DNA from: Tubiluchus corallicola
Taxonomy: Eukaryota; Priapulida; Priapulimorpha; Priapulimorphida; Tubiluchidae
NCBI GenBank assembly: GCA_030141605.1
Contig: JAQGDQ010000385.1
Coordinates: forward strand, 1-64,000
Direction of reading: 5' to 3'
Length of the DNA: 64,000 bases
The translations under genes and the position numbers were made by a program. Below, one piece after another: positions 1 through 49,700 of this stretch. Under the pieces are notes generated by a model. The model saw only the letters and a program-made list of their open reading frames with translations, searched no databases and was not told where the DNA came from. Every line of letters begins with the position of its first letter. The first letter of the stretch is position 1.

Positions 1-5964
<5,964 letters not shown>

Positions 5965-11605: not shown

Positions 11606-13043
11606 CTACCGTTTCCAGTAGGCACTTTTGTTGCAAGCCTTTCTCTTTCTAATAATGTCAATTTTTTCCCTTTTGTTTTTTCTTCCAGTTTTTTGATTTT
11701 CCTTTGTCATCTGTATATCTAGATCGATTCCATATTTCTTTCTTAGCCGCGTCAGTTTCGATATGCGCTCTCTTAACTCAATCAGTTTATCAATATGGTC
11801 ACTAAGGAAATAATCTGCAGCTGTCGTCGTTTCTCCCAGTATTTCTATACCCATCTTGCACAATAGCAGAGGCTGCTTCCTCTTCAATATAACAGACCGG
11901 ACAGGCCATATCTAATTTAAATTTATTTCTGTAATTTGTTTTTACTGCAATCACATTAAGTTTCCACTCTGTTGTCTCACAGGCAGTCTTCTCATCACAC
12001 TCTTCTAAGTATTTCATTGTTTTTTTCCAATGTCCCACTCTATTTTTTAGAAATCGTAATTTTGTTTTTTCGTCAATAGCCGTCAATGATTCTTTTAATT
12101 TTGTTTTTTCGTCAATAGCCGTCAATGATTCTTTTAATTTTGTTTTTTCGTCAATAACCTGCAATGATTCTCAAATCGCCCTCTTAACTTCTTTTTTCCA
12201 TCTGTCTGTCCAACTACAAAGCACTTTACCTTTTTGCACACTCAACACTTTTTTGCATCTCTGTCATTCGACGATAGGTATAAAGATCTTAGCCATATCA
12301 ATTGCTTATAATGCACTCGTTGTTTCATTGGCCAAATTCCACAAATCAGTAACATGCCACAGTAATTTGTACTTATTCTTTGTTTCAACATTCCACATAT
12401 AATTTCCTTTTGCCAATATTCTACTTTTCACATTTATTTTCACTTAGTGTTTCCCATACTTCCATATTTGTTAATAAAGTAGTAGTAGTCATTTTTTCAT
12501 AAACTAATAATCTGATTTTCATATATTGATCTCCTACTTCAAATCTATCACCCCAACTCGTAATTTCCCTTTTCATGTAACCAATTTTCTCACTTCTTTT
12601 TTCTATACTCATATCATGGGTTCCTTTTTCTGTAATATAATCACCCAAATACCTGTAATGGTTTACATTTCTCCCTCTTTTACATGTAATTCTTCACACT
12701 TCTTTTCTTCATTTTTTCGTTTACTAGGATTTAATTGTATGTATTGCGACTTTTACACACAGAAAGTAAATTTTTTAATTCTTCCATTCTTCTACAGCTC
12801 TTTATTGCGTCGTTATTATTTCCCATACTCAATATATCGTCTACATAGATTCGAGCATCTATGCTTACATCGCTGTCAAACTGTACAGCACTCCTTTCAC
12901 TTATTTTGTTTATTTTATCAGTACTAGAGCAACACATAATTGGGCCCCACACTGTTCCTTGTTTTACTGTTCCCCCAGCCTTAAACTTTTCCGTTATTCC
13001 AACTGGTATGACAATTTTTACTGTCGCCTGTTCATTTAACTAT
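11606..13043 (-). mobile_element. Decayed LINE: RT palm, thumb and C-terminal zinc-knuckle region
   Basis: Successive minus-strand frames, broken by frameshifts, give GGTVKQGTVWGP (RT motif B) and IYVDDILSM (motif C) near 12850-12990, then GDYITEKGTHDMSIEKRSEK and KIRLLVYEKM at 12421-12648, then KLNVIAVKTNYRNKF, CPVC and EEE at about 11880-11970. The last resembles the CPxCxEEEDTTEH knuckle that ends some non-LTR elements, but its HxxxC half is lost. Just before it the frame carries a 39-bp unit repeated in tandem (12071-12163). The element is non-functional. Confidence 0.75.
12071..12163 (-). repeat. 39-bp tandem repeat in frame inside the decayed LINE
   Basis: Units begin at 12071, 12110 and 12149 (the last partial). 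Each adds 13 codons (LKESLTAIDEKTK). Confidence 0.9.
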
Positions 13044-16800: not shown

Positions 16801-19800
16801 ATTTTAGCATGCATAATCATGCTTAATACTGTTACATAATGTTTAATATTGACATTCAGCTTTGCGGGATTACTTGTTGCTAGCAGTGGCCCAGTATTGT
16901 TGAGCCCTTAGTTTTAGACTGTATTTCGTAGACTGCTGAGCCATTTTTGTATTCGTAAAGTCCTCATGGCTGCATATTATTACCAATTGGTTTAGATCTC
17001 AGTCGTTTAAAATAATGGAATTTTGATCTAGTATCCTGTACAATGCATAGTCCTGTTCTTCCAATATAACTGTCCGATATAGCTAATAGCTGCACAACTA
17101 TGTAATTACACATGTTTCACTATTATATTTGTGTAGCAATATTTAAAATTTTTGAAACAGTTTGTTTTTTATTAGTACAAAGCAACTGATTTTGTTGTAC
17201 CCGGACCAGGTAAATTAGAAATCACTTTCACACCAGAATCAGGGAAGGATATTGTGAAGTATACCATTCATGACTTTGACGGAGCTGGTGTAGCACTTGG
17301 CATGTTTAATACTGATAAGGTAGTCAAAATTTGGCTATTGACATTACAATTTTAATTTTTTATCATTCTTTTTTAAATTTTGTTCTTCATATTTACATGT
17401 TGCCTAGTGTTAAAATGATTATACAGGGTGTCCATAAAGTCTGGGTACATAGTAAAAACAAATACTTTTTAAAAAACAATTTTATTCAATTTTGATGTTG
17501 ATAAATAATATTTTCAACATGATTTCCATCATTTTCAATGCATAATTTGATGCGTTTTACAAAATTCATGTGAACTCGATGGAGTACTGCCTGTTTCTTT
17601 AAACTTCTTGACCAATTTCCCGACGGCAGTAAAACAAATAGGTTGACGATTAGGGTGTCGAAGGTTAAATTCTTCCGCAATTTTACGATAAGACCATCCT
17701 TCTCGTCCACTTAAGAGTACCAAATTGATTCTTTCTTCCTTAGACAAAGCCATTTTCTTTCTGAGGAGAAAAAATAAAAACAAATAAATAAATAGTAAAA
17801 TCCCCCATGTACCCAGACTTTATGGAGTGGTCCCATTTTAATCTTGGAAATTATTTTATAGTCATTTAGTCATGATGCTACTTGGTCTCAATAGTATTAT
17901 TTGCCATTAAAATCACAAAGAGGTCATTTATTGTATAGTGTGTTTATTGTAAGTACTGAGTAAACATGCATCTGATGTGCCCAGATAGGTTATCTTAGTC
18001 TACTTTGTTTCAAACTTACCTAATCTGAAGATTCCGTGCAGATGAGGAGCATGTATGGTAAAAACGAAAAGATAAATTGTAAACTACCGTGAAATGTAAT
18101 GAGCAGTAGACAGAGGTGTGTAAACCCAATATTAAAACATTTGTAAAATGTTAGACTGAAACATAACTTGAATTTTATGATATCATAAGTGTTACTGGTT
18201 AGTAAGTTACAGCATGTATGAATAATATGGTTGTTACCACTGTATTTTCAGTTATAATACTACAAAGTGTTACTGGTTAGTAAGTTACAGCATGTATGAA
18301 TAATATGGTTGTTACCACTTGTATTTTCAGTTATAATTCTACAAATTATATTTTTTCCATTTTAGTCCATCACAGAATTTGCCCACAGTTCATTCCAGTA
18401 TGCTCTGCAGAAAGGTTGGCCTCTCTACATGAGCACAAAGAACACGATACTAAAGCAGTACGATGGCAGATTTCGAGACATCTTCCAAGAGATATATGAA
18501 AGGTACCCCAATGTTGTCTTTAATATAGAAAAGTTCTTTGATATATAGGTTTCACTTTGAAATTTTAATTTTCTGTAAAATCTGTAATTGTAAAATTTTG
18601 GCTTTGCTGGCCTAATCTCAATTTTGCAAATAGCATTGTAATACCCATTTTGTTACCTAATGAATTAACATAGTAACATAGTCACCTCAAAACTTCGATT
18701 GCAAAGTCTTACTTAAAATGTCACTTCTCCAAGTCTTCACAGATGCAGTCTTTTGTGATGGTTTGTTTTAATTTAAATATTTCTTGACAACAGCATGGCT
18801 TCAGTTGTTTGACAGTGCACTTTGCTGTCGTTAAGCCTTGCTGTTTCATGTGTTCACAAGTTGTGTAATGGCATTGGCAGGTGGTGGTGGTGGTGGTGGT
18901 GGTGGTAATGGTGGTGGTGGTGGTGGTGATGATATTGATGATGACCATAATGATAATATCTGCAGAAGAACTTTTAGATTACTAACTAACAGAAACTGTA
19001 ATACTTCTATTTTTTGTTATATGATTTCAATAAACTAAACAGGTATCATAACAATTAATACGACTCTCTAGGTCAGAGGTTCCCAACCTTTTGTTGACGG
19101 TGACCCCTTTCCAGAACCCTGCATCATGTCGCGACCCCACGAAGAACATAATCACATGTTATACTATTAAACATCTTTATCGTTTGCATTTATTAATTTT
19201 AAGTTACTAATCAACAAATTATTGAACAATGGGTAATTGTTTCATTAATTAATTAATGTAATGCGTCTGTTTTGCAATGCGTGGCTCAACGCCATTCAGC
19301 GCAACAATCATGTCCGATTCTATTTCAAGCCGACAAGGGCATTAGTGCGAGAAACCTCATTTCACTTTCCAGAACAAAATTATGTAATGAGAGACTGAGG
19401 AAACAAGACCAATTTATTTAATTTTTATGGAAACGGGATTTTTTAAAAGTAGTTTTTGGCTAAAAATTAGCCCGCGTCCCCACGAAAAGTGCTTTGCGAC
19501 TTCAACTGGGACCGCAACCCCAAGGTTGGGAACCCATGCTCTAAGTAATACCCATTGCTTAGAGAAATGTGCTGACACTATTAGAGTTATCTGATATGTC
19601 GTGGCTGTAAAACTCATTTTGCACGATAATTTCTTTTTAGAGATTACAAAGCCAAGTTTGAAGCTGCAGGTATATGGTATGAGCACAGGCTTATAGATGA
19701 CATGGTTGCACAAGCACTAAAATCAGAAGGTGGATTTGTTTGGGCTTGTAAAAACTATGATGGTGACGTACAATCTGATAATGTTGCTCAAGGTGCGAAC

Positions 19801-25425: not shown

Positions 25426-28400
25426 TCAGACATCCTCATCAGACAATTCTGCTGCTTCAAATACACGCATCAGGTTTTTTGGACCAATGTTCAATCTGTC
25501 TGGTACAACATCTTCTGGAAGACTGTCTGTGGCACTTTCATACGAACTCTCTAGGGCAGTACGGCACAAGTTCAACCGGGGATAATTAGGAGATAATCTA
25601 AAATGAATAATAAATTAATCCTGTGTACAAAGCAGGTACTGATAGTTTGAAATAGCAACACATAAATGACAATTTGCAAGTCAGCATTTCGCTAAAACTG
25701 TTACAGGTTTGTCACTCTACAATTTACTGTAACGCTACAGCCCAACAACTTACAGCATCTTTTTAATTACATATTACTCAAACAGTTTTCTCAAATTTGG
25801 AAGATGACGATCATAATGATGAGCTTATAACTTAGATAAAAACAAATGCTGAGCCTTCAAAGTTGCTTAAGGAGATTATGGTACCTTACACAGATAAAAT
25901 TATTCTACTTACCTACTCCTTGAGGAATGCTTAGCAGAGTAAGACTTTGGAGGCGTAGAAAACATTGAAAGATCTCTATGCAAAAATTGTGGAGCGGAAT
26001 TTAAACAGCTTCTGAAAAGACAAGATAAACGAATAACTGATGAGTAAAAACAACCAGTCACATCCTTATATACTAAACAACCAAGTTTGTAAATTGAATG
26101 AGTAAACTTTATCACTCTAAAAATGGAAGTACATGAACGTGAATATTTACTTACGATACATCATCAAAAGTTGCAATATAGCTTTCACTAGATGATGATC
26201 CTGAGTAAAGCATGCCAAGTGAATTACGTGATGCATTTAAATGATCGTGGAATACATCGTCTACAAAAAAAAATAAACTTAACTTTTGTTTACTAACTTA
26301 CAATTTACTTAACAATTTCAAATAATTACACATTATTCATATAACAATTTTAAATAATTACATATTATTATTACATAGGAGAACAGCTGAATGTTCATTA
26401 TGTGTACTTGGCTAAAGAAATAAAGTAGTGGTAAGCCTCATTATTAAACAGTCAGATCTAAAGTAACATAGAGTTTCGGTCAAAGCAAAGCCTCGATTTG
26501 ATTTTGATTTCGAAATTCTAACTTTAACAAAAACTTTGTTACATTCCTACCAGAAATGCTTATGATGCAATTGCACAAACATACCATCAGAATAACTGGT
26601 ATCCCACCCGGAAGTGAGGCGGCTATGCTGTTCTTGACGATGAGGAGTATGTGCTCCAGGTTTAATACCGAACAATCGTTGAATGGCTGCAACTAACAGA
26701 TTCCATAATCCAGTTATAAACAGGAGAAATGTTCTTGCCAAGTTTTTAAATTTCAACAGCTAAAACAAAAAAAGAATAAATGTATTATTAACTTTCAATT
26801 TGCTCACTCAAAAAATAATAGCGTGATGAACTCGCTAGCAGCTGCAGCTACAGTCTGGTCACACGACCTTTGCTTTCTAAAGATTTAAACAGTCTATCCT
26901 TTTTGCATAGAATGAATCAGAACAACTCAAATACAACCATGGTCAAGCTGAGATAATGAACTAAAAAGAAGTGGCAGGCTACAGGCCTACCTTATAAGGA
27001 ATTTAAATATGCAATTGCAATCAAAGGCAGTTTAAAGAATGGGCGAACACTCGCTGGCTTAAGCAGATATTTATCAGCAAAAAGGGCCATCATTTATGTT
27101 AAATAAGACAAAACATTTGCTACTAGTAAGCTTGAGTCATTGCTCTTGGTGTATTGCCGTAGAGCAATTAATTTTGGGAGAATCAAATCTTAGATCATTA
27201 GTATTTTGCCAACATTTGGTCCTGCTACAAGATATTAATAAATAAGTGCATAAACCGACTTAGTGAAAAGTTGAATGGAGTTTTTCATGTCATTTAGCAA
27301 AGCTTAACTGTCCCAGTACAGCAAGCAATCGGCAATTACATCACTACTATAACATAACACATACCTAATAGGCATGGCATGATTATAGTTAATTTAGATG
27401 AACATAATTATAGCCAAACACATTTTCATATGGTTATATTTTTATATAAAAATAATGTGAAAATAAAAACGAAAATAAAATTAGCATTAAACTGAGGTAT
27501 TTTACAGTAATTCCCAATTAATTTTATAATTGAAATGTAAAGTATGCAAATCATTATTTTTACCCATTTATAGGGCAGCACAAACATTATGCAGTTGAAC
27601 GGCATAATAAGCAGCAAACACTTAAAACAATCAAAATTTCTCATTGTTATTAAATGCCACACAAAACTATGCTGTTTGCCCTAGCAATTAAACAAATAAG
27701 ACCAAAGCCAAATGCATAAAAACATTCACCTCAGCTTTTATAATTTGGCTAGTTTCAGTTTCAACACTTAGAATGTTGAAATTAGAGGTGGAAGTGGTTA
27801 AACCATTTAACTGATTGGGTATTTATTTCCGATTACTGATTATTTTTTCAGCTGCCGATGTAAATTATTCCAATACCATCCTCAATTTATTTTTTTGAAA
27901 ATCCACGAAGATTGCAAGACGTAGGTAGCTGTCATGCAGTAATAACAAGTAATATTGTTTACCATTGTGTAGTAAATAAGTGCAATGGCATTGCTGTTTA
28001 GATGTGAAGGTTTCACTTAAGGATCAACAGGCGATTTTCACGCACATCCGCTTTCTTACAAAATAACAGAAAACGACACGATAGATCAGTTTTGAAAATA
28101 AGAAATTGCATTTATCCTACTTATAAAAAATTAATGTACAAAAAGGCTGAATTATCACCACTCTTAGCCTTATGTTATTAAAAGTGGTGTACTTCAGTAT
28201 TTTCTTCATTATAAGTTGTACTGTTTTGAGCTAAAAAATAAATTACTAGTAATAAGAATGCCATATATTTTGTTTTCAAGTATCTTACCACATATTTGCA
28301 CTAACAAAACAGAGTTCTCATCACAGCATAGTAATGAATGTTGACCCGACCGGTGTAAATGTCCTACTTTTATTCATTAAAGCTCTTGTAAAAATAATAG

Positions 28401-31400
28401 CATTAAACTTACTGCAAACTTAAGTCTTATCATCCAATATTAACACTGGGCAGCAAAAGTAAATGCCGGATGCTCAAAAAATTAAAAAAATAAACAAGTG
28501 AGTGTTAAATTGAAACTTTCATAAGAAAAACCGAAACAAACTTACTATCTGCTTGACCGCAAGCTGCCTGTTTCGTAGAGAAACATGTTTCTGTACAAAT
28601 GCATATGATAAAATGTCATCTATCGATGGTCGACGAATGTAATCGGGAAACATCATCAGTCGAATAAGTTTAGCCAACTCTGGTGACAAGTCTGAAAATT
28701 ATAAATGACTAAATATATAGAAGCAAAATTATATTAGCAACAAAACACACAAATGCTCATGAAATTCTACCAATTTATGTATGAACATAACAGTTTCTAA
28801 TTTTGGTTTCAAAAATTCTAGATATAACATATAAATTAAAATTTGTCTCAGTAATACAAAAAGTAATTGTGATATTTAAATCTAGTAATGAAAGTAATAA
28901 ATCTAGTAACTGAAAAAATCTAGCATTATCACATTAAAAGTTTCTCCAAGAAACAAAAAGCAGAATGTTTTCAATAATTTAACTTTTAATGGTTACTTAA
29001 CCACGCAATCATGCAAATGTGTGTAGTTGGAATTTAGTATTAATGTTGAAACAAATATAATTTGATAAAGAAACATTAAGATATGTCTGCATAACTGAAT
29101 ACTTTACCACTGTGTTATTGAAAAGCATCAAAACTGAGCTCTTTTACCTTTCACTAAATAATCTGGAATGTTTCCTTCTCGTAAGTGATGCCATGGATCT
29201 TCTCCTCTAGGCAGGTCCAAGTCAGAAGCTAATTCCAAAATAGTTATACCCAAACTGAAAAAATAATGCATTAACCAGTTGTGCAATCAGCTAGTTAAAC
29301 CAATCAGCTTATAAAATTAAAGACATGTTACTAACTGATAGAAGGCAGGCACCGATAAAAAAGAAATAAAAACATCAACGTGGAAATCAAGTTTTGGCTT
29401 AAATACTTTTACCTAAAAATTGATAAAAAACAAAATTATTTTAACTATGGCATTACCTAAACACATCTGCATGCTTCCCAAACTTTCCATCCATCAACTC
29501 GGGTGCCAGATATTTTGGATCACCCTCTACAGCATCTGATAAATCTCCCTAAAAACAATGACTTACAATTAATTACCTTTTTTACACAATATTAGAACAA
29601 AGTATGTAACTGACTGTTGTTGCAATCTCTAAACTGAATATTTAATGACCAAACAACTCACACCTTCAAGTTCCTATGTAATTAACAATTCTTTATTCAC
29701 TCACTATCCAAAATGCAATTTAAAACATTTTTAAAAGTATTAATTAATGAGTACTGTTATATTGTTACATACATTCATATACTTTTAAGGCATGTGAGGT
29801 ATAAAAACTTAAAAAAATATTTGAAACCTTATCAACATATTTTTCCACTTAACGACAACAATTACCACTCAAAATATCATATTTGCTGAACTTAACTGTA
29901 GTACTTCAAATACGATTTTACAGACAACAAACTACCAAGCCTGTTGAACTACAAAATTGTAGAAACACACTGACATAACATTCACAAGATCTGTAAACTT
30001 AAGTACGACTCCTTGGCAAAAAGTATAGAAATATTGTACCTTTTTTAAATCCAAAACAAGTCCAAAATCTCCCAACTTACAAATGCCGTCTTGAGAAATA
30101 AATATATTCTCAGGTTTCACATCCATATGGATAAGGTCATGATCATGAAGATGCTTCAGCGCCTAAAACAAATAACAAATTATGATTATTGCTACAAAGG
30201 CAACAATTAGGACACCTTATCAAAAGAAAAGTAAATTATTGCGTCAAATTGCACAGGAATAGTTAAGGAACATGGGTAAAGGAATTTAATAAATTAAGAG
30301 TGTGTTTTTATCTCAATATAAAGTTTTCTGAGCTGCAAAAAGTCCTGACTTGAAACTTTGAAATTATCAGTACATTAAACCACTTTAGTCACTTGTAAGC
30401 AAATAGCTAAACTAACCAGATGAATATATGAATTTTCAATTTTGAAACTACTCAACACAATTTTATTTGATGTGGATCTGCATTTAGCAGAGGCATCCTA
30501 TAAAAGAATGGCCAAACAAGTAATAGCATTCAAATGTATTTTAATAGATACTTACATCTCTAAGTGGTCGCAAGAAAGGTGCAAATCATTGTCCCACAAC
30601 GCTAAGTCAGTTATTATTTTCTACATTTCAGTTTGCTTCGAAACTTTGTATTGCAATTCACACAAACTAGTGTCTGAGTGGGTGAAACTAACAGTTTTTG
30701 GTTACAGTTTACAGTTTAATGGACAAACAAGTTGTATTGCTACTAACAGGTAATAATTTTTGTTTTAAAAACCATTTCCAAAAGAAATAATTATACATTG
30801 CACGCAGTTTCAAAATTCAAAATTTATAGATGAAAATTCGTGGAACTAATTTAGTTATTTGTAATTCTAGTATCATTATTTGTTTTTCATTTACGGATCA
30901 TTAGTCCTAGGATCTCATTGACAAGAAAGAGACGGATGGCCCGTGAGAGTATGAAATAAAGTGAATTGCACATAAATAACCATAAATGTGCAGTTTTGTG
31001 TTATTTTAAACATTATATTAATGAGCACAACAGAAGAGATCTTCGAGCTACACACAAGAATGCAGCAAAATATAACTATGAACACACAACTAAGATATAT
31101 ACATGTACGCTATCACAAAATGTATTGAACAGTTTCGTGTACCAAGATAACATTGTTTTTGATAGTCAACTAATTTTCTTGAAATCAATTTTTGGATGGC
31201 ATAGAATCTGACCAAACACGTTTCTACATGCAGTCACACATACCATAAGCAAATCCACAGTGTAATTCCAAATAAGCTGCTCGGGAATATCATGATTTTG
31301 ATCAGCAAAATCACTCAAGCTGTAAATATGAGTATTATTTATTATACATAAATATAATAGAAGTATGTATATATATATATATACATATATTGTTACTGTT

Positions 31401-34169
31401 ATTGTTACACTGTACATCAACTAATATAAAAAGCAAAACAGCTCTTGCAGCTTAAATTGGTTTCCAGGCACATTTTTTCTAAAAAAAAACGATAAGGTGT
31501 ACAGTACACCTTTTACTTGAAGAAAATGAGAAACAGGAGCTCGGATAAGTCTAACACTATGTTAAAACTCTACAAGCACATCAGAAAAAATGCTCAAGTT
31601 AGCTTTAGCAAACCATGAACAGTAAAGAAGCATACAAACACTTCTTTAAAACATACCACAATACAAGGTTGGGATGAATTTTGTTAAACGGCAAGCGAAA
31701 ATCAGATTACTGTTTACTGGCTGAATATATTAAATAGAGTAAACTATGTGGCAGTATCAGATTTCCAAAAATAAATTTATGAGGTGATAAGAGCTGTACT
31801 CAGACCCTGAAAACAAATTAATTAACTTTTTGTGACACAATAAAATATGAAATTATACAGCCTCACGTGATATCATGAAAAAGACAAACAAAAATAAATT
31901 TCAAAATACTATTCTAAAAGCACATAGTTATGATTAAAAAAAAATTAACAAAATATATTGATCAATACCAAGCTGCTGCAAATACCCAATATCTGAAACA
32001 CAACTTTTTAGTTTTATCATTAACTGAAACTTGAATCAAAGCATGAAAACAGCATGATCCAAAGAGGGAATAACTGTTTAACCATTAAAGTATTTTATGA
32101 GTAATATAACATGCAGCCAATATTGAACACCAAATTGCAAAAGCTATTTTGAAAAGCCAAGAAATAATATAATGAAATGCTTTTTCAATTATTTTGAAGC
32201 TAAAATACTTTACCTGATTTGGCATAATTCAATTTGTAAATACAAGTGTTGCCTCTCTTCCCACGCTTTAAAAAATTCCACACAATTTGGATGCTTTGGC
32301 AAAACTTCATGCTTCTGTACTTCTTCTAGCTTACGCAGCCTGTAAAATTTACAAAGTATTGATGCTAGCTTGCAAGCTGAGATTAGTATTAGCTGATGTA
32401 ATAACAATAATAATATTCACATCTTAATTTCACCTGTCTGATTCACCCCGAAACTTTTGTTGACACTTTTTCACCGCATAATATTTTCCATCTTCTTTAC
32501 TTTGCACTTTGTAAACCTAAATTGTACAAAAATGGGATATTAAATCCAACACGAGTTTATAAAAATAACTGTAAAAAAAGTGTTAAGCTAAAGTCACAAA
32601 TAGCAGACAAAATAAATACAACAGTTTTTGCCATAATGCAAGCTATCAAACATCAAGTATCAACAACAATAGTTTATGAACTACTGGATAATAAATCTGC
32701 AAAATTCTACTTACATGCCCAAAAGAACCTTCTCCTATTTTGCTTATAATTTCAAAACACTGCTCAAAGTAAAGTTGTCGACTCTCTTCATTGTAATGAG
32801 GACTTGAAATATCTTCATTTGCGTTAAGGTTGAAAACAATGCAAATCGGGACTTAGCTGTGATCCTGCACCCATCAGGTACCGTTATATAATGTACATGT
32901 TGTGGCTATCTCAACTACATTCTAACGCCACATCCTTTCTTAACGAGGCAAATAACTGGAGGGAGTATGACAGACAAATTTTTCCAAAGGCAATGTTGAT
33001 GAATGTCACACATCTATTTAGTAGCCAAGCACTGAAACGCTTAACTTGAGTTGCCAAGCACATTATTATGACGGCTTGGCTGATCTCTACAATGAATTAA
33101 GTTAATGTAAAAAGTAAATTCTGTAAAAGCAAAGCAAAAAGATCAAATATTGTGTAAAAGTTAGGCAGACACTAAATGTAAATTTGACTAGTTAGGTAAC
33201 TTGTAAAGGTTACATTATATTATAAAAATGTATACTGAATATAGCTCCAACATTTGACTCGCTACATTTAACTACTTATAGCTGCTTTGTTCTGTTATCC
33301 TCACTCTCAATGCCCCATTACATAACTGAGATGACATTTTTTTTCATTCTGAAGGATACTGTGAGAGCTACTTCTGAATGACACTGCTCTGGCTTTCAAT
33401 GAATTACTACGACTGTTACTGAATACGCGACTTATAGGAGGAGCACTTTTCACTGGCGGCTTTGGAGGTAGTGCATCTCGTGGAGTTCGACGTTCCTAAA
33501 ATTTTTCAAACATATGTTTAATTTCAAAGTGTTGTACCATTACATAAAATGTGATAAGTAAAGTTTATATAATACTTCGAAATCTCCCAAACAGTACTTC
33601 GAATTTTAATCCATAATAGCAGCAACATATAAGTATAACAAATATACAGCTATATTTCCTGTTGTTTAAGGTTGTCAAATCATAAGGAAAGAGTTGTCTA
33701 CATGTCAAGTCAACATCACAAAAATTATACTGAAATATCAGATTCCCAGAAATTACTTTGCTATTAAATGAGTTCTTATTTTTCTAATATTTAGTTTTCA
33801 GTTTTTTATTCATATTTTGATTAACACATATTTTGATAAAAAACTGATTTTTTAATCTCAAGAGCCGGGGTTACAGGGGTGGTAAGTATTGATTATATTT
33901 TTTACTCTTTACAATATGTCATTCCTTGGTTTGCATTTTCTTGGGGTTATTATAAATATAAAGAATTTACTTGGTCCACAAGATCATTGTAGAATGCACT
34001 ACAAGAAGGTGCTTACTTTCAGCTTATAGATACAGAATCAGTACATATTCTGATTTTAATTTATAATTTAAGTAATAAAATTATACTCTAATCATACCTT
34101 TTTCGTAGAAAACAAGCGCTCTTCAGTAAAAAACTTTGGTTTGGGTATAGGAGTTTTCAATGTAGCCAT
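25426..34169 (-). CDS. PKMYT1: PKMYT1 (Myt1), membrane-associated Cdk1-inhibitory kinase
   Basis: Fourteen exons: 34169-34098, 33495-33360, 32812-32715, 32516-32434, 32339-32214, 31319-31244, 30162-30040, 29548-29457, 29254-29148, 28691-28546, 26759-26585, 26260-26155, 26011-25913 and 25597-25426. They give 536 residues (human 499). Glycine loop GEGSFG at 96-101, ATP lysine in YAVKKC (Lys118), catalytic [10 protein letters not shown] (Asp211), KLGDFG (Asp229) and [12 protein letters not shown]. These are Wee1/Myt1-type, and the hydrophobic segment [16 protein letters not shown] at 363-378 after the kinase domain marks Myt1 rather than Wee1. The C-terminus ([20 protein letters not shown]) parallels the human RNLLSLFEDTL cyclin-binding region. 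The family phosphorylates Cdk1 Thr14/Tyr15 at ER/Golgi membranes and holds G2. Intron 2 appears to be U12-type. Confidence 0.95.
32813..33359 (-). other. Putative U12-type (minor spliceosome) intron, PKMYT1 intron 2
   Basis: The donor reads GTATCCTTC, eight of nine bases of the U12 consensus. The last 20 bases of the intron read CAACCTTAACGCAAATGAAG, with CCTTAAC placing the branch adenosine about 12 bases before the exon and no pyrimidine tract. The phases of exons 2 and 3 close exactly with these borders. Confidence 0.85.
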
Positions 34170-39600: not shown

Positions 39601-42600
39601 GAAAAGGTTAAGGAGAAAGAAGAAGTGAGTAATAATTGATGAGATCTTAATTACTAAATACTAGTAACTGATAATTTGCTTACGAAATATTCAATAGTTC
39701 TTTTAAATTTCCCACTGACTATTTTAATTTGCTTCATAAACAAACTTGCTTATTGGCACTGCTTCCACAGCACCCTAGCTTTTAGAAGAAGATAAACTGG
39801 TGATCAGGTAACTTTGTTAAGCCATGTGAGCTAATCTATAGTCACCTGACACCACTACCTGCTGGCCAGTGAGTTGAGATTGTACGAGGTTGAAAAGTCC
39901 TAACGACCACATAAAGTCCTGCAATGACTCCAGACCATCTCATTTTTAGTATAAGTCTTATAGTTTTTGTAGTTCACTAAGTAGTCTTCTTCTACACTTT
40001 AGCTTTGTGTTTGATTCAACTTCATGCATAGAGCTCTGCATTTTGTATAATAATTATTATTATTTCTTTTATTTCTTATTTATGAAAGTTAAAGATAGTT
40101 GCCCGTAATACCTTTTTGTTGATTTTATTTTTGGTTTGATATGCTGAACCCGTGTTTAATATTGCATTCAAAGAAAAAAATCTAAATTGCTGCGTAATAC
40201 AGTAAACATTTTGATGCAGAGGATTCAGATATATATTTTTCCTTGTTTTAAATCTGTTGTGTGTGTTGCACAACTTGCTTATTTTATTTTATTCTATCAG
40301 AATGCTTTTCTAATAAAATTTTTCCAATAGGAGATTATGGATGTAGAAGAGGAACTATCTGGAGAAGAAAGTGCAGAGGAATCAAGTGAATATGAAGAAT
40401 ATAGCGATTCTGAAGACGAATCTGCACCAAGATTGAAGCCTGTATTTGTGCGCAAGTAGGTAGAAGTCTGTCATGTTTGGTCATATGCAATATGCAGTAT
40501 GCTATACATTTCTTTTTTATCTTGTAGCATATTCAGATGTGCTGTCTTCAACTATTTATAACCATTAATTCACTAATTGTTGAAAAATTTTTATTCATCT
40601 GTGCTTAATTACACTGTATACAACTAAAAACTAACTTTACATATCTTAAAAATAAATCATGTAGAATGTAGAAAAATTTTCACCTTATTTATGAAAGTTT
40701 CACTTTCTTGTAATACGTTTTAGGGACAAGGGACTTTCATCTTCCTGATGTAATTTGCAGCTCGATTCATTTATTATATTAATTAATTTATTTATTCTAT
40801 TAATTTATTCTTTGTCTCGCAGGAGAGATAGGATAACTATCCAAGAAAAAGAAAAAGAAGCACAGCGTCAGAGAGAATTGGCTTTGGAAGCAAAAAGAAT
40901 GGCGGACGAGCGACGGAGGCAGACTATTAGAGTATGCATTTATGCTGTGCATCTTGGCCCCATATATAAAGTTGTATAAGAGACATGTAGTTTTCTGTTC
41001 TGAAATACTAGTTTTTCTATGTTGTGAATAATTTCTCTTAGATACTATTTTTACTTCCCATAAATACTATGCTACTCATTTTACCTACTGAAATACCAGC
41101 AAGAATTTGTACCACTGAGCAATGAGCATTATATTCTATGAAGTGCTAAAAAGCTTCTGTTGAAATGACCAGGTACACGATTAACATGTTGCACTTACCA
41201 TTCTTTTATTGCTTACAATAGATGGTTGAAGAAGATGCCCGCAAGGAACTAATGCAACAAGAAGGATTGAAAAATGAAGCAGATTTGATCATTACAGATG
41301 ATGAAAATGATGAGGCAGAATATGAATCCTGGAAAGTTAGAGAATTGAAGCGTATAAAACGAGATAAAGAAGAACGAGAGGCGTAAGACAATTATTCATC
41401 ACATTGTTAATTGCTTTGTGTATTAGTACATAACTTTCTTTTCTATTGTAGATATGTATTATTTCTCAGCTTTTCCATTTAACTTCAGCATTTTTTTTAG
41501 TTTTGTATGACCTTGCAATCACCTTGTGACAGTGACCTGTAAAATCTGTTTTGTTAATTTGCCAGGCTCGAAAGGGAAAAGTTAGAAGTTGAGAGAATGC
41601 ACAACATGACCGAAGAGGAAAGGCGTGCAGAACTGAGGAATAATCCAAAACAGATAACAAACAAAGCTCCAAAAGGAAAATACAAGTTCTTGCAAAAATA
41701 TTTCCACAGGGGTGCATTCTACTTGGTATGTATTACTGCCTAAAATATCTATAATACATAGATTTCTTCTCTGAATTGTGCGAACATTGTCGACCACACC
41801 TTGCTGACTTCAATTCTTGTTACAATTTAAGTTCTTTAATCTTTGTCAGTTTAGTTAGATGCCATTTATGTTATTAGGTTCAGAACAAATTTTGGATAAT
41901 GTTTATAGCTAGCTAGTTTATAGCTTTATAATGTTAATAATGCTAAGTGTTTGTGACCATTATGTGACAGGCTGTATTTAGTTAAATGGTGTAAAGCAGG
42001 ACAGTGCACTAAATTATTATTTTGTGTTATTTGTAGGGTGGAGAAGATACTGTATATAAGAGGGATTTCTCAGCACCTACATTAGAAGACCACTTTGATA
42101 AAACAATACTGCCTAAGGTTATGCAGGTAAATAAATTTTTTGTTCTAGCATTTTCTGAACAGCCGGTCCATTCTGTGTGTTAGTCAAAATGTTTCTCATA
42201 TTGGCTAACCTTAATGGCCTAATGCTGTGCTACATCAACGTGCAATCTGTGCAGTAAGATATTATAAAGATCCCCATGTCTGTTATTGTGTTGAGCTCGC
42301 ACTTTCATTGTGAACAGTAGAATAAGTTGTTCATCAGTCAACTAGTTCTGAAAAGTTGTTAATTTTTTGCAGACATGTGTACCTAAAAAACAGTTAAAGT
42401 GGAACTTGTAAGCACACTTTTTTGAGACTGGTGCTTTTTAATGCGTGCTACTGTTCAGTAACAATTTTATCACAAAAGAGTAAACTTATAATGCTTAAAC
42501 TCTATTATTTCTAAGTTTAAGGCAGAATTTTATGCAATAAATTCCTGTATAAGATCGCCCCACAAGTTGTTTTTCTAAATCACTACTGTGATTCATTCAT

Positions 42601-46703: not shown

Positions 46704-49700
46704 ATGATCATTTACCGAAACAGGCCCCACGTTAGATTAAAACCATCTGAAACCGGGTCAAATATCAAAAGAGTCGAAAACTCTGACGGTACTGCACTTC
46801 TGATGGGTATGTTTATTGATTTCTAAGAAAAATGCCTGTTTTTGTTAACTTTATCAGTGCTTAGATTTAGGGAAATGATTGCCACAGCAAGTATTGCTTC
46901 ATAGTTCATCAGCTGTCTCGATGTTATTTCCACCTGTTTCATGTAATTCAGGCCCCTATGTGTAATAAAATTATTTAAATTTTCCTATGTAAAACCATCT
47001 AACTTTCTAAAACCATCCGTTATTTTAGTGTTCTGGCTATTATTTGTCGTATGCAAATCCATCATCCAGTTCTGAAAGTGGATCAACAGGATATCCCTTT
47101 TGTCTTCAGGCAATCAGCAGTTTCCACCGTTTTTCACCCATGTTAGTCACAAAATTTATACCCCTGTTGTATAGTACTTCTGCTTGAGCAAGAAAGCAAA
47201 ATGCTCTAATCTGCAGCCACCTATGACAGTACATAGATCTGGATAACAATATCTATTTCCTGACATCACTTTTATTTATGTATCACAACGTGCAGCATTT
47301 ACCTAGAAGTAGGCTATATTTCTACTGCTCAGTAATTATAATGACATGTCAGGGGAGATCTTTTGATATTTAGTAGAAAATTCTAGAGGTAGCATCAGGA
47401 GTTTTCCATGACAATTTTTACAGCATTTTTTATCCAGCTAACTGGCCCACTTTTTACCCACCCGCCTTAGCCCACCAGGCATTGCCCAAATACTGTTGAC
47501 CGTTATGCATTGCAGATATAGAAATTACAGAAATAAGTACAAATTATTCTATAAAATTCACCTGACAATGGTAAAATCCATCCATTAGTTGTGATCAAAT
47601 CCACAGAAGGAAGAGATCAAACTTGGAAAACTGGTGAAAATGTGTTACAGTTTTAGTGACTTTTAGTTGCATCTCACAAATTACAGAAGTGCTGAAAAGT
47701 GGGACTCTCAAAATAACAAAGGGGTTTGGGGTTGAGAACTGCAGATTCTCCTTTAACTAGTGACGGCTAGAGTCCTTGAATTTTGATGCTGTTTGAAAGT
47801 CTTTTAGAAATTTAAATTACCATTTCATTTATATAAGAAAAATGTGGATAACTAAATCTCATGAATAAACTAAATTGTGTTATTGGTATTAATTTTCAAT
47901 GGATAATTATTGGTATTAATTTTTAACAGATAAACAAGCAGAAAAGGATATTCACATCTGTGGAACATGCAAAGTTCAGTTTAATGATGTTCAATTGTTT
48001 ATCTTACATAAGAGAGAAAATTGCTTAGGAGTTACGCAAGACAAATCAGCAAAGGTAATTAACTAGAAAAATACGTTTTCACCGATTTGTACTTTATAAA
48101 TGTAGATTCATATAATGCACTAAAGATTTCTTCTCCATAATCCTATCTGTGAACCATTTAAAATAAGCACAAGCAAAACAACTATAGATTAGCCGTGTAT
48201 CAAAGTATTTTTGCACCGGATAACCTCCTTATTCTGCATCCGTTATACTTTCTACAAAGACTACAATGACTTTGCGACATTGACTTTGTGACTTTGATAC
48301 AATTTGTACAGCACGTTGTGTATATGTCAAATTTACATGAAAATTGTCTTTTAGAACCAAGAAACTAATTCAAAAAATGAATCAGCTATGCCAGATATGG
48401 CTGCTGCAGTTACTCCTGTATCAGTTGCTAAGAATAATTATACTTCCGGAAAGCAATCTGTTCATGGTAAAGTACTTCATCCACAGTCTGCGTCTGGTCA
48501 GCTGTTGACTGCATTAGAGGTAAGTTACTTCTGTTATTCTGTGGTAATCGATAATCTTATTCATCGTGCTATTGTTAACCATTTAATTCCTATAAAAGTA
48601 AATTAAAATCTTTGCATTATTTCTTTGGCAAATTTCATCTTCTTGTATTTTTGTGTATCGTATAGTTTATGTGTTGTGGAAATCTTGCACAAATCATAGG
48701 CCTATGTAAAAACATGTAGCAGCCACTGTGAGCCATCTTGCCAATGCACAGTGACGTCATTCCATAGCATTCATATGAATTCTTCATTTTTTTAAAAAAA
48801 CTTGTTTTAACTGAAGCTGATCTAACTAGCTGCACTGTCTAATAAATGTAGTCATTTTAGTTCATGATAATTTTATTCAAACTGTCACAAATCTAATACG
48901 TGAGCATGTATCAGAAACAAAAGTAAAGAGTTAAGTGGTACATATTGTTGTGTTTTTGCTATCTGCAGTTTAATCTTTTGACTAAATTGGTTTGCTGTTA
49001 GTTCTTCACATTTTTAGTTCATATAAAAATTTAAAAAAATTTGTTTTTGTCTTTTATAGATAATGTCTGTTGACAACAATGATCTGAATAAAGGGACAGC
49101 AAAGGAAAATTTTCATGCTACTGTTCCGGAAATGCTGTCTTGTAAGTCAAACACTCGGGGCTTTCTCTTAAGTTAATACAAGAGCGCATAAGACAACATT
49201 ATAAGTTTCTTATGTTTGCTTTTATATCATGTGGGGGGTACGTATTTTTGTACATATCTCTATAATTAGAAGGCTTGAAAAAGACTGACAGGAACCCATC
49301 ATAAGTTCATAGAGTGTATGTAAAGCTACTGAAGTTAGCATTTGGTGAAACTTAAGTGCTGTGTGCTAGTTAATTTTTAGGCAAATGCTTCTTGTAAACA
49401 TTCACGAAAGAAATTACTTCGTTTTTTCTTAGCGGGATCATTAGTATTATTACCAGAAGCATCGCAGTCTGGAATAAAAGGCATTAAGCCTAAAGGTGAG
49501 TTTTAAAATTATTTGTTACAAAAATAATTTAGTTCATATAAATCAATAAATATGCATTATTTTTAACTGCTGAAACTTAATAGTACTTAATAAACATGTT
49601 TTTTATGCTAGGTGTATGTGACTTAACAATTTATTATAAATAATGCTGAGCACACTGTAAAAGAGACACTTGTGTGGAACTCATTAAGTTTTATTGATAA

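Follow-up and report, generated by a model that had tools for sequence, protein, structure and literature searches.

In U12-type introns the donor is recognized by U11 and the branch site by U12, and both recognition steps are well established. PKMYT1, the kinase whose gene is considered here, is a brake on cell division.

U12-type introns are rare. According to a published survey, they are retained by many animal groups (PMC10639083), and many animals have a small number of them. Minor-intron loss is reported in the survey for tardigrades, two mites, chironomid midges and two copepods, and in another paper for C. elegans (PMC2831892). Most animals in Table 2 of a third source have GT-AG as their most frequent U12 subtype (PMC7367187). 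In the survey, minor introns are biased against phase 0 (about 22% are in this phase) and are mentioned as proposed regulators of proliferation. The survey attributes the gene biases mostly to gene age and gives no support for cell-cycle control as a general cause of minor-intron persistence (PMC10639083).

An earlier note on the DNA studied here had proposed a U12-type intron in PKMYT1. We analyzed this intron together with the other introns of the window, i.e., the whole 64-kb stretch of DNA. No account of the intron turned up in a literature search on PKMYT1 and minor splicing, with supplements and intron databases outside the scope of the search. One paper that matches both subjects (PMC10112910) is unrelated to it.

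The gene and its second intron

The features required for the argument are as follows.

26585..34169, minus strand: PKMYT1 gene model, 11 exons from the ATG at 34169, 3' end tentative
33360..33495, minus strand: exon 2, upstream of the focal intron
32813..33359, minus strand: intron 2, the focal intron, probably U12-type (GT-AG), 547 nt, phase 1
33351..33359, minus strand: 5' splice site GTATCCTTC, 8/9 match to RTATCCTTT
32823..32829, minus strand: putative branch-site core CCTTAAC, second A at 32824
32813..32814, minus strand: 3' splice site AG, context ATGAAG/ATA
32715..32812, minus strand: exon 3, start of the kinase domain
33307..33309, minus strand: in-frame stop on intron retention, giving an 86-residue product without the kinase domain

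The 11-exon model yields an open protein with a Pfam Pkinase domain at residues 89-336 (E 5.5e-50). The end of exon 11 at 26585 is tentative; a GTATGT donor then comes. Six solved sequences have E < 1e-60 to the spliced protein, and all of them are PKMYT1. The best one is human PKMYT1 (E 5.8e-81 for the whole protein against the human chain), which aligns with residues 55 to 333 and shows one 1-residue gap over the junction of the focal intron. The 148-residue N-terminal part is also closer to PKMYT1 (1.2e-31) than to Wee1 (1.8e-14), the query being approximate, with one residue extra. A C-terminal membrane anchor was looked for, and a hydrophobic 16-residue stretch in exon 11 was noticed by reading. 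The gene name given in the earlier note agrees with these comparisons, the stretch before the kinase domain included, and they support the gene as a PKMYT1 orthologue whose predicted kinase is nearest to PKMYT1 among solved kinases. A protein scan of prokaryote genomes returned 10 distant kinase loci (L001-L010), which are unused in the argument; the scan of viral contigs found none.

The borders of intron 2 proposed in the earlier note are exact by sequence. Read on the minus strand from 33359 to 32813, the intron begins with GTATCCTTCAG and ends with CAACCTTAACGCAAATGAAG. Its donor stands in the context ACA/GTATCCTTC and has T, C and C at positions +4..+6. The branch-like core was found where it had been placed, about 12 bases before the acceptor (32829..32823), with 11 nt left between the branch A and the intron end. 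The core is exact, and the full 9-mer AACCTTAAC matches TTCCTTRAC at 7/9 positions: AA stands upstream of the core where the consensus has TT. The form TCCTTAAC does not occur at this intron. The exons close across the junction in phase 1 (A/AT), again as the note had it. Stops occur in each of its three frames (14, 10 and 12), and its length of 547 nt is not divisible by three; its removal is therefore required.

Comparison with other introns and with chance

The comparison set consists of 27 modelled introns: eight in the gene of NADP isocitrate dehydrogenase (IDH), nine in MFAP1 and ten in PKMYT1. The set stops at exon 11 in PKMYT1, begins after the upstream exons in IDH and includes no intron of the zinc-finger gene. 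The scoring of donor and branch suggested in the earlier note was carried out with plain match counts, not with intronIC matrices. The consensus strings were RTATCCTTT for the U12 donor, TTCCTTRAC for the branch site, and the U2 donor consensus. Forms close to the two U12 strings, ATATCCTT and TCCTTAAC, appear in PMC2831892.

All 27 introns are GT-AG. The focal donor, with 8/9 to the U12 consensus and 2/7 to the U2 consensus, has both the highest U12 and the lowest U2 donor score of the set. The motif CCTTRAC is found 8-20 nt before the AG in the focal intron and in none of the 26 others. The intron classes cannot be told apart by a plain 9-mer branch match: 7/9 is also reached by three of the 26 others (MFAP1 introns 2, 5 and 9), where one of the 9-mers lies 25 nt from the intron end and the two others 3 and 7 nt from it. 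The base at -3 is A in the focal intron (acceptor AAG) and C or T in all the others (YAG).

The earlier note had also described the pyrimidine tract as missing. The pyrimidine fraction at -20..-4 is low (0.47 versus a mean of 0.68 in the 26 others), but one of the 26 is equally low, and the longest pyrimidine run, 5, is ordinary (3 to 11 in the other introns). The absence of the tract is thus a weak mark of the U12 type here.

The other nine modelled introns of PKMYT1 are U2-type in look, and the focal one is a coding intron. The earlier remark that every other intron looks U2-type was checked on the 26 other introns of the three genes, none of which reaches 8/9 at the donor or has CCTTRAC 8-20 nt before the AG. 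The second-best U12 donor belongs to MFAP1 intron 6 (40932..41221; GTATGCATT, 7/9). This donor has G at +5 and there is no CCTTRAC near the AG; the intron is most likely U2-type, judging by these letters.

The window also contains other elements. IDH intron 4 (17320..18365) holds a segment, 17431..17826, with perfect 20-nt inverted ends. It includes a 94-codon open frame on the minus strand (17538..17819), helix-turn-helix-like by eye, for which a Pfam search gave no match; the segment is perhaps a truncated DNA transposon. In the same intron, 18187..18319 contains two identical 55-nt copies whose starts are 78 nt apart. On the minus strand at 884..2413 a reverse transcriptase extends across two reading frames with Pfam RVT_1 in each; this is probably a LINE-like element. 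At 12734..13039 RVT_1 matches more weakly, under the family cut-off.

Motif frequency alone was rejected as a basis for significance, as the window counts are at chance level. RTATCCTTY was observed three times (2.25 expected), CCTTRAC ten times (11.3 expected), and TCCTTAAC plus AG twice (1.5 expected), never at the focal intron. The window has a single donor-branch-AG pair within 3 kb; of 150 shuffled windows, 39 have at least one. The two remaining RTATCCTTY matches were taken as chance: the one at 17252 is antisense to an IDH exon, and the one at 47951 has no CCTTRAC plus AG 60-3000 nt downstream. The signals of the focal intron carry meaning because both sit at the ends of an intron demanded by homology.

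Intron class and border choice

Judging from sequence, we give a probability of roughly 0.93 that PKMYT1 intron 2 belongs to the GT-AG subtype of U12-type introns and is excised by the minor spliceosome. Points against this reading are the 7/9 branch match, the AAG acceptor and the chance-level frequency of each signal in the window. U11 would read the donor ATCCTT, U12 would pair with the branch core CCTTAAC, and the acceptor would be the AG that closes the 11 nt past the branch A. We infer that the species has a minor spliceosome (U11/U12/U4atac/U6atac) and splices this intron with it. A search of the 64-kb window against Rfam, which covers this window alone, gave no match at the gathering score.

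The same borders could belong to a U2-type intron processed by the major spliceosome, with a donor and 3' end that resemble U12 signals by chance. The GT-AG ends are common to both classes and U2 signals are degenerate; the low pyrimidine fraction and the 7/9 branch match also have counterparts among the other introns (1/26 and 3/26). The T, C and C at +4..+6 of the donor and its U2 score, the lowest of 27, argue against this reading, as does the AAG acceptor beside 26 YAG ones. Under a donor matrix of the 26 other introns, ATCCTT at +3..+8 has a probability of 2.3e-4, and a match of at least 6/7 to ATCCTTT, a looser test, 2.0e-3. Among 52000 shuffled intron ends, the exact branch core CCTTRAC came up 45 times at 8-20 nt before the AG. 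Both signals together would arise in a U2 intron with a chance of about 2e-7 to 2e-6. Combined with a prior near 0.3%, which is the minor-intron density in vertebrates according to PMC10639083 and may not be that of this species, this favours U12 over U2 by a factor of hundreds to thousands. The factor is rough: it relies on few introns, assumes independence and concerns motifs picked after being seen. A chance resemblance at these borders is very unlikely.

Another explanation is that the real borders are nearby U2-type sites, with the U12-like signals playing no part in splicing. A list of the GT donors in the open stretch (33435 and lower positions) and of the AGs between 32960 and 32715 yielded 38 frame-preserving pairs, made from 13 donors and 21 AGs. 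Two of them, 33326/32786 and 33321/32784, come close: their proteins exceed that of the U12 reading by just 2 and 3 residues. Still, both lose at least ISSPHYNE, a stretch whose counterpart in the human alignment is LQSPGYD with the residues after it. Of the 38 pairs, 33359/32813 is the only one in which ISSPHYN stays, spaced much as in the human protein. For the AGs at 32852 and lower positions the pyrimidine fraction ranges from 0.41 to 0.65. The most U2-like of them, 32763 (0.65, GAG) and 32760 (0.53, CAG), hold up against some of the real acceptors in the window, but as acceptors they would lead to an even larger loss from the aligned stretch. Displaced U2-type borders seem very unlikely.

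Three acceptor-like AGs lie within the intron itself, at 33121, 32956 and 32939, with pyrimidine fractions of 0.82, 0.76 and 0.71. They were ruled out as U2-type acceptors of exon 3: they cannot open this exon because the stop at 32855 closes its frame. Should minor splicing fail, these AGs might serve as cryptic splice sites.

Retention and comparison with known U12-type introns

If the probable U12-type intron were retained, 17 residues would be added, and the stop would follow as the 18th codon after the final complete codon of exon 2. This stop is 595 nt upstream of the end of exon 3, and more junctions lie downstream. According to PMC8329584, RNAs with unspliced U12-type introns undergo nuclear retention and degradation, or nonsense-mediated decay. 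It may be supposed that the intron couples PKMYT1 protein output to minor-spliceosome capacity in this lineage, and that low capacity loosens the Cdk1 brake, speeding or deregulating mitotic entry; we consider this quite improbable. Control of G2/M via minor splicing, suggested in the earlier note, is speculation.

The catalogue of animal minor introns gains one position, in a core cell-cycle gene. The PKMYT1 case would be one more data point, of greater use if the position were shared across animals.

The closest counterpart of the gene is human PKMYT1, the orthologous kinase. The intron is an ordinary addition to the known U12-type class, as far as its sequence can tell. Its phase fits the phase bias of minor introns, which is a weak indication. 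It differs from the animal U12-type introns in two details, the branch without the two upstream T and the acceptor AAG. It is like the U12-type GT-AG introns of animals in its donor, its branch core, the short distance from branch to AG and phase 1, and also in being single among the U2-like introns of its gene.
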